From a virus, in the IMG/VR virus record IMGVR_UViG_3300043436_002669, positions 1-27,340 of that record: a DNA stretch of 27,340 bases; one strand, 5' to 3'. Position 1 is the stretch's first letter; every line of letters starts with the position of its first letter. This document shows, piece after piece, positions 197 through 8,874 of the stretch. A program made the position numbers and the translations under genes. The notes below the pieces were generated by a model. That model saw nothing but the letters and a program-made list of their open reading frames with translations, did not search any database and had not been told where the DNA came from.

Positions 197-264
197 TGTT
201 CATACCATATGAACAGCGTGCTACCCTTATTCGGTTGACCGAATAAGAGTAGTATCGCTAATCA
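197..264 (-). promoter_or_regulatory. Leftward leader copy 1 (two hairpins)
   Basis: HP1 is 226-247: CTTATTCGG, loop TTGA, CCGAATAAG. The outer CTAC/GTAG bases also pair, so 13 of 14 stem positions match. HP2 is 197-215: TGTTCATA, CCA, TATGAACA, with perfect 8-bp arms. The shared TGATTAGCG motif (leftward sense) lies at 256-264. The element ends about 30 bases before the ATG at 166. There is no T-tract after either hairpin, so an intrinsic terminator is unlikely. Confidence 0.8.
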
Positions 265-274
265 TGTAGAGGGA

Positions 275-808
275 TTACATTTTCAGATAGTCAAGGTTGC
301 GTTGGGCTGACTCGATTGCATCTTCCGTAGTGAACGGGCGATGCCAGTTCTTGAGTGGGTCTTCGCCAGTCTTGGCACAATACAAATCATACAATGCCCA
401 GCACCTAAAGGAGTGCAGTATCCTGCCTTGGCAACCCGCCTGTCCGAGTTCGATGAGAGTGACCTCATCTATCTCGTCACCTTCACGCTCATCGAATCCT
501 GCTATCGGTTGGTAGTCACCACATCCAACGATGCTGTCCTGATAAACTACATACCAATGCTTGCCGTCCTTACGACCCATGCTGACATACTGAATATCCA
601 TATGCCAACTTTCTGGGCAACACCTGTCATCGCAAGGCCAAGGTACTGCGACATCCTCGGCATCAGACTCCCACTCGAAGTCACCTTCTGGCGTGCCATC
701 GAACAAGCCTTCGAGTGTGGGGGTTTCGAGGTTGTCGATCTTGTCTGCATAAACAGACTCAACCTCATTGGTCAGCTCTTCTATTATTTGTTTTTGTTCT
801 TTAGTCAT
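275..808 (-). CDS. Hypothetical acidic protein, 177 aa
   Basis: ATG at 808 follows the leader motif AACAAATAGAAAT, and the stop at 275 lies just before leader copy 1. The protein is strongly acidic in its first half (many D/E around residues 20-55). It has a central Cys cluster (DDRCCPESWH) and further Cys residues, and is rich in W and Y. No known domain is recognised and no membrane segment is seen. Leftward orientation is favoured over the equally long opposite frame (341-874) because start and stop sit exactly between two leader copies, as for its neighbours. Likely an accessory or early protein; function unknown. Confidence 0.75.
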   Translation of the reverse strand: MTKEQKQIIEELTNEVESVYADKIDNLETPTLEGLFDGTPEGDFEWESDAEDVAVPWPCDDRCCPESWHMDIQYVSMGRKDGKHWYVVYQDSIVGCGDYQPIAGFDEREGDEIDEVTLIELGQAGCQGRILHSFRCWALYDLYCAKTGEDPLKNWHRPFTTEDAIESAQRNLDYLKM

Positions 809-824
809 ATTTCTATTTGTTTAC

Positions 825-891
825 TGCTCAAACCATATGAACAGCGTGCTACCCTTATTCGGTTGACCGAATAAGGGCAGGTCGCTAATCA
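825..891 (-). promoter_or_regulatory. Leftward leader copy 2 (two hairpins)
   Basis: HP1 is 854-875 (loop TTGA) and extends to 11-bp arms with CCC/GGG (852-877). HP2 is 825-843 in a degenerate form. In leftward RNA sense the arms are TGTTCATA and TTTGAGCA around TGG, which keeps six pairs, one of them a G.U wobble. The upstream gene's TGA stop (889-891) is part of the repeated TGATTAGCG motif. Confidence 0.8.
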
Positions 892-1293
892 CTTATTGTA
901 TTTGACGAGGTAGCCTGTTGCGGCGAGTGGTTTGACCCATCTATCACTTACATCTCGTATCTCCCAGAACTCTTCACCCGCAAGCATTTTATTGCGGCGC
1001 GTCTCTTTTCTGTCCGCTTCCTCTACCTCTACGAGTTCGAACTTCGTGTCCTGCGATTCGTAATACTCACGCAAGGCATCCCTATCTGTGGATATCATGC
1101 TGTTAACAGGCTCGAACCCAATGTCGGGCGACCCCCACCAGAAGACTAACTCCCATAGTTTAAATTCTTCCTCGACTCTCCGACTTACATACTCTGCATC
1201 GGCTAGAATATCTTTTAGTTCTTCTTCCATGTAGTAAACACTAGACAGCAGTCCGCGAATACTCATTGCTAATTCTTCGATTTCTTTTTTCAT
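889..1293 (-). CDS. Hypothetical protein, 134 aa
   Basis: No family recognised. The start at 1293 (MKKEIEELAMSIRGLL) is preferred over the upstream in-frame ATG at 1332. The upstream ATG lies inside hairpin HP2 of leader copy 3, whereas 1293 follows the A-rich sequence AACAAATAGAAAC seen before other leftward starts. The first 50 residues look helical or coiled-coil (EELKDILADAEYVSRRVEEE). A Trp-rich stretch follows (LWELVFWWGSPD), then a charged C-terminal half. The stop TGA overlaps leader copy 2. Function unknown. Confidence 0.75.
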   Translation of the reverse strand: MKKEIEELAMSIRGLLSSVYYMEEELKDILADAEYVSRRVEEEFKLWELVFWWGSPDIGFEPVNSMISTDRDALREYYESQDTKFELVEVEEADRKETRRNKMLAGEEFWEIRDVSDRWVKPLAATGYLVKYNK

Positions 1294-1322
1294 ATTCTGT
1301 TTTGTTTCTATTTGTTTCTGCG

Positions 1323-1385
1323 TGTTCACCATGAACAGCGTGCTACCCTTATTCGGTCAGCCGAATAAGGGCAGGTCGCTAATCA
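1323..1385 (-). promoter_or_regulatory. Leftward leader copy 3 (two hairpins, HP2 shortened in both arms)
   Basis: HP1 is 1348-1369 with loop TCAG. HP2 is 1323-1337: TGTTCA, CCA, TGAACA. Compared with copies 1 and 4 it has lost two bases from each arm, so pairing is kept. The previous gene's stop (1383-1385) again forms part of TGATTAGCG. Confidence 0.8.
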
Positions 1386-1757
1386 TATCTGGTTCTGTTC
1401 CAGATCTACGCGCATCAGATGTTGCCCGACCTCTCGAAGGTCTCGGCTGAAGTCAAGCACCACGCCTTGCGCCTTGTTTAGGTGCGCTGTCCAGTCACCG
1501 AATGAGTGTCCGCCGATGTTAGCTGGCGAGTATTCCACATCATCTCCATCCCTATCGAACTCTATGGATATGGTGGTCAGATCAAACTCAAACTCCAGAT
1601 GAACCTTTATCGGGCATCTGGTTTCGGATATCGTCATCTTCACATACCATCTATGTCGTGCATTGGTGCTGATGTTTAATGTCGCATCATACTTATCAGA
1701 TATCTTGAACATCTCGCTCAAGAACTCTTGGACTACTACTTTTTCTGATTCTAACAT
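1383..1757 (-). CDS. Hypothetical protein, 124 aa
   Basis: ATG at 1757 follows AACAAATAGAAATAAAC without a Shine-Dalgarno sequence. The sequence has alternating hydrophobic residues (VKMTISETRCPIKVHLEFEF, then LTTISIEF), which suggests a beta-rich fold, with an amphipathic helix at each end. No domain is recognised. It lies between leader copies 3 and 4 and appears to be a single-gene unit. Function unknown; probably a small early phage protein. Confidence 0.75.
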   Translation of the reverse strand: MLESEKVVVQEFLSEMFKISDKYDATLNISTNARHRWYVKMTISETRCPIKVHLEFEFDLTTISIEFDRDGDDVEYSPANIGGHSFGDWTAHLNKAQGVVLDFSRDLREVGQHLMRVDLEQNQI

Positions 1758-1779
1758 ATGTTTATTTCTATTTGTTTAC

Positions 1780-1846
1780 TGCTCATACCATATGAACAGC
1801 GTGCTACCCTTATTCGGTTAACCGAATAAGGGCAGGTCGCTAATCA
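1780..1846 (-). promoter_or_regulatory. Leftward leader copy 4 (two hairpins; HP1 fully palindromic)
   Basis: HP1 is 1809-1830 with centre TTAA, so all 22 bases are self-complementary. HP2 is 1780-1798. In leftward RNA it is TGTTCATA, TGG, TATGAGCA, with one G.U wobble replacing a pair. TGATTAGCG (leftward sense) contains the stop of the 47-residue gene. Confidence 0.8.
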
Positions 1847-1987
1847 TTTGCCTATGACTGGCATCATCACGACATTGCCATACAAGACTGGCGTTGGCGT
1901 TGCTAACTTGTCGAGCGCATCACGGCTCGCAAGATAGATGATGGCGGCGTCAACCGACGCCGTGCTTGTGGTCGCGTCAATGTTCAT
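1844..1987 (-). CDS. Small hypothetical protein, 47 aa
   Basis: This frame starts at ATG 1987, overlaps the stop of the upstream gene (ATGA at 1984-1987) and stops with the TGA inside leader copy 4. It begins MNIDATTSTASVDAAIIYLA and ends PVIGK. The overlap implies translational coupling in a three-gene unit headed by the gene at 2348. Its first four residues (MNID) and the surrounding bases are identical to those of the upstream neighbour, which points to a duplicated junction. No domain; function unknown. Confidence 0.6.
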   Translation of the reverse strand: MNIDATTSTASVDAAIIYLASRDALDKLATPTPVLYGNVVMMPVIGK

Positions 1988-2136
1988 GGCTTTACCTCTC
2001 CGTATTCGATTTCATGACCCTTCACAATCAGGTCAAGGGCATCATTGTATTCCATCCCATAACGAGACGCGAATTCTTCAACGGTTAGGACGTTATTGAA
2101 CCATTCGATAAATGCTTCGTGAGGGTCAATGTTCAT
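1984..2136 (-). CDS. Small hypothetical protein, 50 aa
   Basis: The start at 2136 (MNIDPHEAFIEWFNNV) overlaps the upstream stop as ATGA, so it is preferred over a longer frame from 2262. The protein looks helical; residues 17-40 (LTVEEFASRYGMEYNDALDL) could form a small helix-turn-helix-like pair, but this is weak. It is the middle gene of a coupled trio (2348, 2136, 1987) and has no leader of its own. Function unknown. Confidence 0.65.
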   Translation of the reverse strand: MNIDPHEAFIEWFNNVLTVEEFASRYGMEYNDALDLIVKGHEIEYGEVKP

Positions 2137-2146
2137 GGCTTTACCT
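2125..2146. repeat. 22-bp direct repeat at a gene junction (second copy 1976-1997)
   Basis: GTCAATGTTCATGGCTTTAC plus two more bases occurs twice, 149 bases apart, each time spanning a TGA/ATG overlap between leftward genes. It encodes the end of one protein (KP, stop) and the start of the next (MNID). Confidence 0.8.
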
Positions 2147-2348
2147 TCACTTGATTGAACGCTTCGGCGAGGGACACGCCGAAAGGTTGACGAGTTGTCA
2201 CGCTTGTCACGACAGGCGTGTTTCGGGTCACGGCAATCTCTTGCCAGCATCCGTTGATCCAACCCATGTCCTTGATGACCTTGGGTTTGACGATGTTCTC
2301 TTCGATGAGCGCGAAGAATCGCGCATGCTCTATTGTTCTTCTTTTCAT
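2133..2348 (-). CDS. Small hypothetical protein, 71 aa
   Basis: ATG at 2348 follows AGAAAAACAA and leader copy 5. The sequence (MKRRTIEHARFFALIEEN...) has a basic N-terminus, a central GWINGCWQEIAV segment and a C-terminus ending VKVKP. No family is recognised. First gene of a three-gene unit joined by ATGA overlaps. The next gene also ends in VKP, consistent with partial duplication at the junctions. Confidence 0.65.
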   Translation of the reverse strand: MKRRTIEHARFFALIEENIVKPKVIKDMGWINGCWQEIAVTRNTPVVTSVTTRQPFGVSLAEAFNQVKVKP

Positions 2349-2362
2349 TTGTTTTTCTCTAT

Positions 2363-2408
2363 GCGGGTTGATAACCGCTTGCTACCCTTATTCGGTTAGC
2401 CGAATAAG
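2363..2408 (-). promoter_or_regulatory. Leftward leader copy 5 (HP1 conserved, HP2 of different sequence)
   Basis: HP1 is 2387-2408 with loop TTAG. At the usual place of HP2 there is an unrelated hairpin (2363-2378, GGTT/AACC around GAT plus an outer GC pair step). The pairing capacity is kept while the bases differ. Confidence 0.7.
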
Positions 2409-2423
2409 AGCAGACAGCGACCA

Positions 2424-2510
2424 TCACCATGAGCCATTCAGATGCTGAATGACTATGACGAGGTAGACGGCAATGATGATGCCGACAATGAATGCGAGTA
2501 TTTCTTTCAT
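2424..2510 (-). CDS. Single-pass membrane microprotein, 28 aa
   Basis: ATG at 2510 overlaps the upstream stop (ATGA). The peptide is almost entirely one hydrophobic segment: MKEILAFIVGIIIAVYLV followed by IVIQHLNGSW. A short charged N-terminus, about 20 membrane-spanning residues and a polar tail fit a small inner-membrane peptide. The longer frame from 2624 lies wholly inside the upstream gene and is rejected. No family can be assigned at this length. It could modulate the host membrane or be an accessory holin-like factor, but that is speculation. Confidence 0.6.
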   Translation of the reverse strand: MKEILAFIVGIIIAVYLVIVIQHLNGSW

Positions 2511-2752
2511 GGGCGGTGTCTGATGAATTGAACTTGATAGTCGAGATCCTCGTCCTCTACGAGGGCTTTGACTAATCCGTTTTTGGCTTTGGACAACCTT
2601 CTGATTGTCCCCGACACTTCCCACTTCTGGGGTTTCCCATGCTCGTCATGAACGAGGAATGAGTGATAGTCGGTGACGACTCCGACTTTGAGCAGGGGTG
2701 ATGATTTGAGATAGACCTCAAACCTAGTGGTTGGCATATTTTTCTTTATCAT
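2507..2752 (-). CDS. Hypothetical protein, 81 aa
   Basis: The sequence contains RFEVYLKSSPLLKVGVV and VSGTIRRLSKAKNGL, consistent with a small beta-barrel-like fold, and ends DYQVQFIRHRP. The start may be ATG 2752 or ATG 2737; the latter is preceded by ATAAAGAAAAAT, resembling the A-rich pre-start sequence of other leftward genes. It is the first gene of a two-gene unit with the membrane microprotein and lies behind leader copy 6. No family recognised. Confidence 0.65.
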   Translation of the reverse strand: MIKKNMPTTRFEVYLKSSPLLKVGVVTDYHSFLVHDEHGKPQKWEVSGTIRRLSKAKNGLVKALVEDEDLDYQVQFIRHRP

Positions 2753-2777
2753 GATTCTGATATTTGAATGTGGAATC

Positions 2778-2845
2778 CTGTATCCTGTAAGGGTTGGACT
2801 TGCAGGATACAGGGTGCAGGATTCTTATTCGGTTGACTGAATAAG
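2778..2845 (-). promoter_or_regulatory. Leftward leader copy 6 (HP1 with one mismatch, HP2 replaced by CCTGTATCCTG hairpin)
   Basis: HP1 is 2824-2845 with loop TTGA and one changed base in the right arm. HP2 is replaced by a stronger hairpin, 2778-2812: CTGTATCCTGTAAG, 7-base loop, CTTGCAGGATACAG, 13 of 14 positions pairing. It lies between the stop at 2848 and the start at 2752/2737. Confidence 0.7.
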
Positions 2846-2847
2846 GA

Positions 2848-3270
2848 TTACAGGCGAGCGGCGATGTTTGCCATGAGTTTGACAAGCTCACCCTTGGGCA
2901 TTTGCGACAGGTCAACATCGCTCGCTTTTGTTGGCTTGCCTTGGCTTGCCTTGGGCTTGTCGCTTGCCTTGCGACCACCACCAGCGGCGCGGGCGCGGAA
3001 GATGTTCTTCTCGCCTTTGCTTTCGTACAATCTCACGCCCGCCTCAACGATAGTTTCCATCGCCCATCGGCGATCATAACCTTTGCTCACGGCATGAGTG
3101 ATGAATGCCTCGCGAAAAACGAGAGGCTCAACCTTGCCGTGGTACTTATTCCATAAAGCCATGAGCGTATCCATCAGGATCACTTCGGCTTTATGCACAC
3201 CGAGCATTGCCGTATCCAATACGGAGAAGTCGATTGTGATGTTTTTGTTTTTGTTTTGTTTTGCTTTCAT
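2848..3270 (-). CDS. Hypothetical protein, 140 aa, Lys-rich
   Basis: The start at 3270 (MKAKQNKNKNITIDFSVLD) is chosen because the longer frame from 3369 would translate through the HP1 dyad of leader copy 7. The N-terminus is Lys/Asn-rich. Residues about 15-85 appear globular and helical (VLDTAMLGVHKAEVILMDTLMALWNKYHG). The region around residues 95-125 is basic and low complexity (GGGRKASDKPKASQGKPTKA), which suggests a DNA- or RNA-binding tail. It is the first gene of the leftward cluster. No family recognised. Confidence 0.7.
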   Translation of the reverse strand: MKAKQNKNKNITIDFSVLDTAMLGVHKAEVILMDTLMALWNKYHGKVEPLVFREAFITHAVSKGYDRRWAMETIVEAGVRLYESKGEKNIFRARAAGGGRKASDKPKASQGKPTKASDVDLSQMPKGELVKLMANIAARL

Positions 3271-3304
3271 GTTTTGCTTTCTACTTTTGTTTTTGTTTTT
3301 GCTA

Positions 3305-3366
3305 GGTGAGGGAAGCGATGCGTCAAATCTTATTCGGTCAGCCGAATAAGCGCATCTCCCCTCACC
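3305..3366 (-). promoter_or_regulatory. Leftward leader copy 7: extended stem-loop at the head of the cluster
   Basis: HP1 is 3329-3350 with loop TCAG. It is enclosed by further complementary arms: GATGCG/CGCATC (3317-3322 and 3351-3356) and GGTGAGGG/CCCTCACC (3305-3312 and 3359-3366). In leftward sense a TTGACG followed 16 bases later by TAGCAA lies inside the element and could be a weak promoter for the cluster. Confidence 0.65.
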
Positions 3367-3576
3367 CACTAGGGGAATCCATACCTCTAACCGCCACGCT
3401 TAAAGCATATCGCAAAAGCTATTTGAACCCTGAATCCTGATGCCTGAACAAGGAAACAGGATACAGGCTACGGGTAGGGTTTGGGTTTTTTGGCTACAGG
3501 GTTCCGATAGGAACCATGCTTGAGAAAAAATAATTTTACTTGACAAATAAGGTGTTGACACGAGAGTATAACCTCT
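3367..3576. promoter_or_regulatory. Divergent control region
   Basis: No gene is seen here. It contains a hairpin CCTGAATCCTG/CAGGATACAGG (3429-3439 and 3457-3467), a dyad GGTTCC-GATA-GGAACC (3500-3515), and a TTGACA at 3540 with a TATAAC at 3567 ahead of the gene at 3577. The 21-base spacing between these two boxes is too long for a standard sigma70 promoter; a second TTGACA at 3555 is too close. A rightward promoter is likely but its exact boxes are uncertain. Confidence 0.5.
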
Positions 3577-3810
3577 ATGAGCGACAAGGAATCCTACTAC
3601 GAGCGGTTCAAAGAGGAGCGTAAAGCCTACCAGAAGGCGTATTACACCAAGAATAAGGAGTCGCTGAAGCGCAAAAAGGAGTTGGACGCAACTCTAAAAC
3701 CGGAAAAAGTGAAAAAAGTGCAGGAATACCAGCACAATTATTACTTGACAAACCGCCAGAAGCTACTGGAGCGCAAGAGGTTACGCTATCGGGAAGAAAA
3801 ATCTGCGTAA
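3577..3810 (+). CDS. Small Lys/Arg-rich helical protein, 77 aa
   Basis: The protein has repeated units of the type AYYTKNKESLKRKKEL and NYYLTNRQKLLERKRLRY. This pattern (Y-Y-x-x-N-x-x-x-L-x-x-K) is typical of the basic helical N-terminal extension of phage HNH endonucleases, and a similar stretch is present in the HNH gene at 10498. No HNH core follows, so this may be a stand-alone DNA-binding remnant or a small nucleic-acid-binding protein. The start lies 4 bases after TATAAC, so the mRNA may be leaderless. Function unproven. Confidence 0.65.
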   Translation: MSDKESYYERFKEERKAYQKAYYTKNKESLKRKKELDATLKPEKVKKVQEYQHNYYLTNRQKLLERKRLRYREEKSA

Positions 3811-4186
3811 CTGTACCCTGTACCCTGTATCATGTGACCTGTTTCATGTGTCACGTAGCCTAAAAGGGTACAGTGTGTAGGATACAAGACAAAGTGGACG
3901 CTTTGTGTACAGTTTTTGATACGTTAGCACATTTCGCGGACGGACAGGCGCGGTAAACGGTTCCGGTTACAGGATTCAGAAACAATTGGACACGACTTTT
4001 GGGCTCCAAATAAGGTAGAAATTGAAAACGCTAAATGTCTGAAAACTTTTAGAGAGTGTGCTAATTCATAATAACTCAATAATTCAATTAATACTGAATT
4101 ACTGAAGTATTATGAATTACCTAAAGGCTAGAGAATTATATATATGGCTGTGCAAAAATCAATTTCTACCTTTTTTAAGAAATAAC
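3811..4186. other. Non-coding, AT-rich region; candidate replication origin
   Basis: No gene is supported across these 376 bases. The left part holds a hairpin with arms ACTGTACCC/GGGTACAGT (3810-3818 and 3866-3874). The right part (about 4020-4150) is markedly AT-rich. It contains nested inverted repeats, TAATTCATAATA/TATTATGAATTA (4062-4073 and 4108-4119) around TAATTCA/TGAATTA (4080-4086 and 4095-4101), and a TATATATA tract (4138-4145). The position between divergent gene blocks fits an origin or a regulatory hub; this is inference. Confidence 0.45.
4062..4119. repeat. Nested AT-rich inverted repeat
   Basis: The outer arms are a perfect 12-bp match with a 34-base interior; the inner arms are a perfect 7-bp match with an 8-base loop. 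All arms share the word TAATTCA or its complement. Confidence 0.8.
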
Positions 4187-7443: not shown

Positions 7444-7734
7444 ATGTTTGCCAACAAACCAGTTACTCCAATAACAATTGATCGGTGGTTTAATGACCCT
7501 CAATCAGCGCCGAGACTAAGGGAAATAATTGAGAACCCTTATTTTGAACTAGCAGCAGCTACTCTCCTTTCGGCATCCCGCCCCACTTTTTCTAACTTGG
7601 GTGACCCCGAACGGAACTCCCAAAGACAAGCGTGGTTGGCCGGATACCATGACTTCCTGAACGATCTCATTAAGCTGACCAAACAACCTGTTGCTAAGAA
7701 CAATAACCCAGATGAATGGGCCCACTACGAATAA
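7444..7734 (+). CDS. Small hypothetical protein between portal and scaffold, 96 aa
   Basis: The sequence begins MFANKPVTPITIDRWFND and carries the conserved-looking segment RQAWLAGYHDFLNDLIKLTK near residues 58-78. Small genes in this place, often with a similar AGYH...L..L motif, are common in podovirus head modules, but I cannot name a function. It ends 3 bases before the scaffold start, so the two are probably co-translated. Confidence 0.75.
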   Translation: MFANKPVTPITIDRWFNDPQSAPRLREIIENPYFELAAATLLSASRPTFSNLGDPERNSQRQAWLAGYHDFLNDLIKLTKQPVAKNNNPDEWAHYE

Positions 7735-7737
7735 CAT

Positions 7738-8874
7738 ATGAGCACACCAACACCTGAATCAGCGCCCGCTTCGGACGCCGCCACTCCTGCCGACAACGGT
7801 GGGTTCGTCGAATCCCTTGACTCGTACTTCGCGTCGATGGAAAACCCCGCACCGGAGCCTACCCCAGAACCGACGCCGGAGCCCAAGGAAACCGCACCGG
7901 AGCCCAAGGAAACCACGCCGGAACCCTCCGACAGCAAGCAAGACGCCCTTGCCGAACTCGATTCGGTCGAGCCTAAAGACTGGACACCGGAAGCAGCTCG
8001 TCGATTCAAGGAACTCAAAGCCGAACTCAAGACCTACCGCAGTAGGTCTGAGGAACTGGAGCAAGTCGCGGCTCAAAAGGAAAGCCGACTTCAGGAATTG
8101 GAAGCACTCGCCAACAATCCAGAGTACCAGCAACTCCAAGATCGGATCGCTGAGTACGAGAAGAACATGCTCGTCACGAAACTGGAGCAGAGCCACGCCT
8201 ACCAGACCCTTGTTGAGCAGCCACTCGCCAACCTCGTACAGGAAGCCGATAACATTGCCGAGAAGTACTCGCTCGATGCCGGTACCCTACTCGAAGTAAT
8301 CGCTACCGATGATGAGGCCGTACAAGAAGAACAGCTTTCTGAGCTACTCGCCAACGCCAGCGACCGCGATAAGTTCCGAGTCTACAAGATCATCGAAGAG
8401 GTCCGCCCCATCCTTGAACAGCGTCGCGTCCTACAAGAGCACGCTGAGGCGGCTCTGCGCGAAGCTGAGGAGCTTGACAGTGTTCGGAACCAGCAAAGCC
8501 TTATCGAGCGTGTGCAACAGCGTCAGGAGGCTGCTAACGCAGTTGCTGACAAGCTCAAGAACAAGCTCACGTTCCTTTCCGGCATGGAGGGTGTGGACCT
8601 TTCGGCCTACGCCAAAGAAGCGGCAGAGCTTGATCCCTCTACCCTTGACCCTGTAACCGGAACCTATCATGCGATGGCCGCAAAGCTGTTGCCGAAGATG
8701 GCTGCTCAGTACATCAGCCTCCAGAAGGAGATCGATTCCCTTACCGATCGTCTTGCGGAGTACGACCGTGCTACGCCGAGAGCCGGAGGTGGATCGCTTG
8801 CTACGGCTGGCGCACCTGTCACCGCTGACGGCAAGTCATTCCTTGATGCGGTCACTGCTGCATTTGGTCGCTAA
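7738..8874 (+). CDS. Scaffolding protein, 378 aa
   Basis: Predicted to guide procapsid assembly. It lies between portal and major capsid protein. The N-terminal 65 residues are low-complexity and Pro/Glu-rich (repeats of PEPT and PEPKET), followed by long coiled-coil helices from about residue 85 to 290 (RRFKELKAELKTYRSR, EELEQVAAQKESRLQELE), and a Gly/Ala-rich C-terminus ending SFLDAVTAAFGR. High helix content, acidity and this order are typical of phage scaffolds. No protease motif is seen. The start follows the previous stop by 3 bases, with no Shine-Dalgarno sequence. Confidence 0.85.
   Translation: MSTPTPESAPASDAATPADNGGFVESLDSYFASMENPAPEPTPEPTPEPKETAPEPKETTPEPSDSKQDALAELDSVEPKDWTPEAARRFKELKAELKTYRSRSEELEQVAAQKESRLQELEALANNPEYQQLQDRIAEYEKNMLVTKLEQSHAYQTLVEQPLANLVQEADNIAEKYSLDAGTLLEVIATDDEAVQEEQLSELLANASDRDKFRVYKIIEEVRPILEQRRVLQEHAEAALREAEELDSVRNQQSLIERVQQRQEAANAVADKLKNKLTFLSGMEGVDLSAYAKEAAELDPSTLDPVTGTYHAMAAKLLPKMAAQYISLQKEIDSLTDRLAEYDRATPRAGGGSLATAGAPVTADGKSFLDAVTAAFGR

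Follow-up and report, generated by a model that had tools for sequence, protein, structure and literature searches.

The virus record IMGVR_UViG_3300043436_002669 carries seven nearly identical inverted repeats in a leftward gene cluster, and the question raised by this locus is what role they play and what recognises them. The window analysed here is the entire IMG/VR record (27,340 bases), which is itself a fragment. Each repeat (hereafter dyad) has the pattern CTTATTCGG-N4-CCGAATAAG, and the copies begin at positions 226, 854, 1348, 1809, 2387, 2824 and 3329. The reading that we favour, with a probability of roughly 0.55, is that the dyads are dispersed, autoregulatory, stoperator-like recognition sites of gA, the protein of the first leftward gene, and that most of them are displayed on an RNA hairpin. 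Judged from the sequence, a dual role as operator and intercistronic hairpin fits best.

A first-pass annotation had placed one dyad ahead of every leftward gene with its own start, with arms constant apart from one base, and none at genes overlapping their predecessor. All of this was borne out (Table 1). Six of the seven dyads were perfect, and the sole mismatch was in copy 2824; the chance expectation was 0.01 dyads (mean of dinucleotide shuffles), and none of 100 shuffles reached seven. The dyads stood 38–71 nt ahead of a leftward gene (59, 45, 54, 51, 38, 71 and 58 nt from the start codon, in the order of the copies), and the genes beginning inside their predecessor (2510, 2136 and 1987) had none. 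No further copy was found in the whole window. Four further IMG/VR records (G001–G004) were recovered by the dyad pattern, with the copies always in one leftward cluster, and in five relatives (records of 60, 45, 20, 59 and 66 kb) the dyad was restricted to this same cluster. The annotation had named frequent dyads within genes or in rightward parts of the genome as the finding that would speak against it; such a distribution was seen neither in the window nor in the five related records.

The copies changed in concert between close relatives. G009 (66 kb; found through the gene at 3577; portal 98.6% identical) carried CTTATTCCG-TTGA-CGGAATAAG at the same boundaries. The window and G009 shared 97% identity over bases 1–899; both dyads in this interval differed from G009 by the same two mirror-image bases, and their flanks were almost unchanged. 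In nearly all G009 copies, CCG/CGG replaced CGG/CCG in one or both half-sites. This included copies with unrelated flanks: those before and after gA followed the core change in at least one half-site, and the flanks of copies 2824 and 3329 are unrelated to those of the other copies. The same core change across copies with unrelated flanks suggested a common reader and is hard to attribute to homogenisation of whole cassettes. In G010, which is 98% identical with near-identical rightward genes, GTCWAG-N5-CTWGAC sites were found instead, with nine exact copies that all lay within the leftward cluster. Separately, an extra downstream copy in G009 (L034, about 5,285), ahead of the gene starting at L034 5270, had the other core (TTATTCGG-TTAA-CCGAATAA); G009 had no CGG site besides this one.

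Relatives exchanged the motif sequence along with the first gene of the operon, and this gene therefore probably encodes the regulator that reads the motif. The gA family (115–169 aa, strongly basic, isoelectric point (pI) 9.8–10.4) was found in eight phages (the window, G001–G004, G009, L054, and L057), all with CTTATTC or CTTAGTTAG cores, and was weakly detected in L075. An unrelated family, gA2, was found in seven phages (L055, L060, L062, L063, L067, L071, and L074), all with GTCWAG sites. First-gene family agreed with site type in these 15 phages, gene and sites being physically linked. The portal tree required at least four switches of type, and the types were not clustered but scattered as in shuffles. 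A putative recognition helix of gA read YD[RK]RWAM in the five phages with a CGG half-site in the gA-adjoining sites, and YSNKWAG, YSTKWLG or YCDKWAG (Y-x-x-KW-x-G) in the three phages with CCG or CTTAGTTAG. Directly after this helix, the gA of the window had a 12-residue insertion (VRLYESKGEKNI) that its closest relatives lacked. Models of gA and gA2, of modest confidence (predicted local distance difference test, pLDDT, 70 and 68), placed a disordered linker between a helical N-terminal domain and C-terminal helices; for the window gA, the linker was basic and was followed by one C-terminal helix. Alignment of gA with gA2 covered 43 columns at a probability of 4%, and no relationship is claimed; a protein query with gA found no additional relatives among viral contigs. 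The suggestion in the annotation that the dyads are operators or stoperators for a small phage-encoded binding protein thus gained concerted change and a candidate that tracks site type, the binding by gA being presumed.

Most dyads form part of a longer hairpin. In five of the seven copies (226, 854, 1348, 1809, and 2387), the paired stretch, interrupted by an internal loop, reached 18 bp, and the hairpin block contained or closely followed the stop codon of the upstream gene. In these copies and their counterparts, the stem consisted of a 9-bp core, five further pairs, a small internal loop and four outer pairs. Among 22 distinct cassettes (alignment A5), 96% of the stem cells were paired, eight stem pairs were changed on both sides, and stem covariation was 0.368, compared with 0.143 when shuffled and at most 0.082 when slid; RNAalifold recovered the same core stem. 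The cells comprised 365 Watson-Crick, 25 G-U, 1 A-C and 5 other combinations, counts made with the outer helix of two relatives shifted by one column; the G-U and A-C cells are not independent, and by position and type they number 5 versus 1. Since G-T and A-C departures are equivalent in duplex DNA, the predominance of G-U over A-C when the leftward strand is read argues for selection on the leftward transcript. Together with the covariation, this bias points to a boundary stem selected for pairing in leftward RNA. Sense folds had z of -5.8 to -7.0 and were stronger than antisense in four of five boundary hairpins, and compensatory base-pair conservation on one strand, a feature of intercistronic mRNA hairpins, was present. 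At four boundaries the dyad began 13–15 nt past the stop codon, and the leaders after the hairpins were A-rich and unstructured, running into the next ATG. No terminator-like site was found at any of the seven dyads and no U tract in the leader, in agreement with the annotation, by which these are not standard terminators. The RNA-hairpin role that it had raised held for five of the seven copies; the extended boundary stem was absent at 2824, and 3329 had a different outer repeat (GATGCG...CGCATC plus GGTGAGGG...CCCTCACC), for which relatives substitute other complementary arms.

Table 1. Dyads and neighbouring features in the window (strand -, leftward).
Feature	Position	Strand	Description
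Dyad 1	226..247	-	Tip of boundary hairpin (RNA-model match 210-264); ahead of gene starting 166
Dyad 2	854..875	-	Tip of boundary hairpin 838-891; ahead of gene starting 808; upstream stop codon 889-891 within the conserved block
Dyad 3	1348..1369	-	Tip of boundary hairpin 1332-1385; ahead of gene starting 1293; upstream stop 1383-1385
Dyad 4	1809..1830	-	Tip of boundary hairpin 1793-1846; ahead of gene starting 1757; upstream stop 1844-1846
Dyad 5	2387..2408	-	Tip of boundary hairpin 2371-2426; ahead of gene starting 2348; upstream stop 2424-2426
Dyad 6	2824..2845	-	Half-site CTTATTCAG imperfect; extended stem absent; just 3' of gA, ahead of gene starting 2752
Dyad 7	3329..3350	-	Upstream of gA; within outer inverted repeat (about 3301-3370)
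gA	2848..3270	-	First leftward gene, 140 aa, pI 9.9; candidate dyad-recognising regulator
TCCAACC hairpin	2777..2813	-	Conserved hairpin following gA, loop TCCAACC; distinct from the dyad family
Divergent intergenic block	3530..3576		Conserved in relatives

In the proposed mechanism, gA, encoded by the first gene of the operon, would recognise the dyads, and its binding would repress or tune expression. The site upstream of gA would provide autoregulation, and another lies just past gA. With one site at each later boundary without gene overlap, gA could tune each following cistron, like the stoperators of mycobacteriophages. At most boundaries the site would be the tip of an 18-bp hairpin of the leftward mRNA, between the upstream stop codon and the A-rich leader, and this hairpin may insulate or stabilise each cistron. 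The dyads are accordingly described here as real, well-placed, lineage-specific gene-boundary elements under RNA-level constraint, with a credible candidate cognate regulator and a function that we infer. A bolder proposal, which we consider doubtful, is that each phage has a private post-transcriptional address for its early operon: the small basic gA would read a hairpin specific to its genome wherever a gap separates two cistrons of its early mRNA, and a joint swap of the protein and all its hairpins would let near-identical phages escape or exclude one another.

Several points weigh against recognition by gA. Neither gA nor gA2 belonged to a Pfam or PHROG family, and their models gave no Foldseek match to solved structures at E<=0.001. 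Gene and site were concordant in 4 of 4 independent pairs, which gives only p 0.125 and is too few for significance; gene and sites also lie in one 3–5 kb block, so that linkage alone could produce joint switching. The association of helix motif with half-site (Fisher p 0.018) was spotted after the fact. In some gA phages the centre length ranged over 4–8 nt, more variation than a rigid dimer on DNA could accommodate. Finally, G003, whose gA carries the first helix motif, had CGG in the sites adjoining its gA, whereas three boundaries further down carried CCG sites with a 5-nt centre; its sites are mixed as those of a recent recombinant would be.

The alternative that survives best, possible although on the unlikely side, is that the dyads are purely RNA elements. 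Intercistronic hairpins would process, protect or insulate the cistrons of one leftward mRNA via host factors, the copies would be alike through cassette duplication and recombination, and gA would be a linked neighbour. The covariation and G-U bias of the boundary stem agree with this, as do the 13–15 nt spacing from stop codon to dyad at four boundaries with the A-rich leader next, the freely variable loop length, and the repetition of the cassette flanks with a gene content that differs between cassettes. However, copies 2824 and 3329, with their unrelated flanks, have the same arms as the other copies and took part, to some degree at least, in their change; the arms are identical within a genome while the outer arms vary freely; and the gA2-type sites have no comparable RNA signature and were also found inside genes.

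It appears improbable that the dyads are purely DNA operators or stoperators for gA, with RNA pairing as a by-product of palindromes. The half-sites do change in concert, and stoperators provide a precedent (PMC6550527). The gA2-type sites are fixed 17-bp palindromes in both orientations and occur within coding sequence too, including the gA2 gene; on these grounds, they look like DNA operators. A GTCWAG-N5-CTWGAC site inside gA2, in the stretch encoding the disordered linker, was located at L055 3900, L060 3924, L062 4030, and L071 2925. For the gA dyads, by contrast, the 25 G-U against 1 A-C in leftward RNA, outer arms paired far past the 22-bp core and the variable centre length are at odds with DNA binding alone.

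The annotation had also considered recognition sites for a phage RNA polymerase, and N4-like hairpin promoters, one per unit, are very improbable. A dyad does lie upstream of every unit, and a 3,852-aa protein of a relative (L033 6010–17568) resembles the N4 virion RNA polymerase, but in size only. It gave no significant family match, no RNA polymerase family and no motif B or C were found in the giant proteins, and it was rejected as an N4-like RNA polymerase; another giant protein (3,045 aa) was encoded at L022 613–9750. A sigma-70-like promoter scan found 3 matches against 7.0 expected, below chance, with no promoter-like hexamers at the dyads, and the stem differs between near-identical phages, stem and centre length varying between copies as well. 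That the dyads serve recombination in an array of gene cassettes (as attC-like sites of an integron, or as sites of a tyrosine recombinase) is scarcely credible: each cassette is a stop codon plus hairpin in one orientation with varying gene content, and the gA and gA2 models bore a recurrent weak likeness to tyrosine-recombinase core-binding domains (Z 4–5, a lead only and below the meaningful level for helical bundles), but no PF00589 tyrosine recombinase was found in nine records up to 66 kb, which may be incomplete (with positive controls), the conserved part lies at the tip whereas attC has it at the base, and the centre length is not fixed.

The stoperators of Cluster A mycobacteriophages (L5, Bxb1) are asymmetric, 13 bp long, distributed genome-wide in temperate phages and bound by a monomeric protein (PMC6550527, PMC9283540), and regulator and stoperator consensus vary together between close relatives (PMC6550527). 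The dyads resemble them as dispersed short sites with one candidate regulator gene, mostly in one orientation to transcription, site type and family of the candidate gene switching jointly. They differ in being palindromic (22 bp; 17 bp in gA2 phages), in lying at the gene boundaries of one leftward cluster, in forming RNA hairpins, and in the alternation of two unrelated candidate regulator families; no integrase was found in the nine records, and the Pfam and PHROG searches gave gA and gA2 no homology to the L5 gp71-type immunity repressor. The ESAS of Cluster K mycobacteriophages are inverted repeats just upstream of some non-structural genes, with a subcluster-specific consensus and unknown function; differing binding specificities were suspected, departures were judged to speak against RNA pairing, and a 13-bp element accompanies them at the ribosome-binding site (PMC3203893). 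The dyads are likewise inverted repeats ahead of gene starts with a lineage-specific consensus. Unlike in ESAS, their departures strongly back RNA pairing, a candidate cognate gene was identified, and the 13-bp GGGATAGGAGCCC start element was absent from the A-rich leaders. The dyad system is a member of neither group, differing in site symmetry, protein family and associated elements.

In the early region of T7, RNase III sites are intercistronic hairpins between the early genes of one transcript, an arrangement like that proposed here. The T7 sites are not known to switch sequence alongside a linked phage gene, and any cleavage of the present hairpins is hypothetical. In phage lambda, the small basic protein N acts with phage-specific boxB RNA hairpins, which is comparable to candidate gA and its hairpins. 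Lambda has only two or three sites and its loop is recognised, whereas in the present hairpins conservation lies in the stem and the loops vary.

Some cassettes differed in content or context between relatives. Between matching cassettes, the window (889–1757) had two genes (starts 1757 and 1293), and G009 (L034, about 7,500–8,090) had one different gene; genes may thus be exchanged by recombination at the boundary cassettes. In the gA2-type phage L062, one gA-style cassette, at 3374–3426 and scoring 39 bits against the RNA model, had an altered core and directly adjoined a gA2-type site; it is possibly the relic of a switch. Alignment of the capsid protein gave 75 loci in viral contigs, several of which had a hairpin family of their own in the corresponding region. 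The distant relatives L061, L064, and L069 had CTTGTCAC/GTGACAAG in the same leftward region, and further private families there were GAGTTAGC in L068, CTGTAATA in L077, TCGGTTTAAT in L081, GGAGGCTGGACTA in L107/L121, and CTTAGTGC in L076, where the outer arms were copy-specific yet complementary. L043 and L044 were rejected as further CTTATTCCG-dyad relatives, being unrelated contigs. Rfam matches at the cassettes were sub-threshold microRNA look-alikes only and were rejected as chance hairpin resemblance.

Around the divergent region, the conserved intergenic block held a weak sigma-70-like match (GTGTCA-17-TAAAAT, 3561–3533), the sole leftward one ahead of gA. The TCCAACC hairpin has a nearly fixed loop and a variable but complementary stem; it follows the first leftward gene in gA- and gA2-type phages (also at L047 3968, L055 3735, L060 3765, L062 3864, L071 2767, L072 2657, and L106 2945) and looks like a separate conserved RNA element. 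Many intergenic repeats (CCTGTATCCTG / CAGGATACAGG) surrounded the region (window 2777–2822, 3430–3475, and 3810–3890) and were present in relatives too. In the divergent region of G004 (L020 8044–8134), ARAGORN reported a tRNA-like structure without a clear anticodon. A comparison with 50,697 phage records gave no DNA similarity; the portal had no match, the terminase matched one remote uncultivated record, and the DNA polymerase had remote matches only. The sole cellular match was a contig in an Acidimicrobiaceae metagenome-assembled genome, possibly a stray virus contig.

If recognition of the dyads by gA is true, the stoperator idea would reach a group of uncultivated phages and gain a link to RNA structure. 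Phages otherwise 98% identical would be exchanging, as one module, a regulator together with the full set of its gene-boundary sites, and gA and gA2 would be a new pair of candidate nucleic-acid-binding protein families with predicted target sequences. These phages would thereby offer a natural experiment in how one protein and many scattered sites shift specificity jointly.

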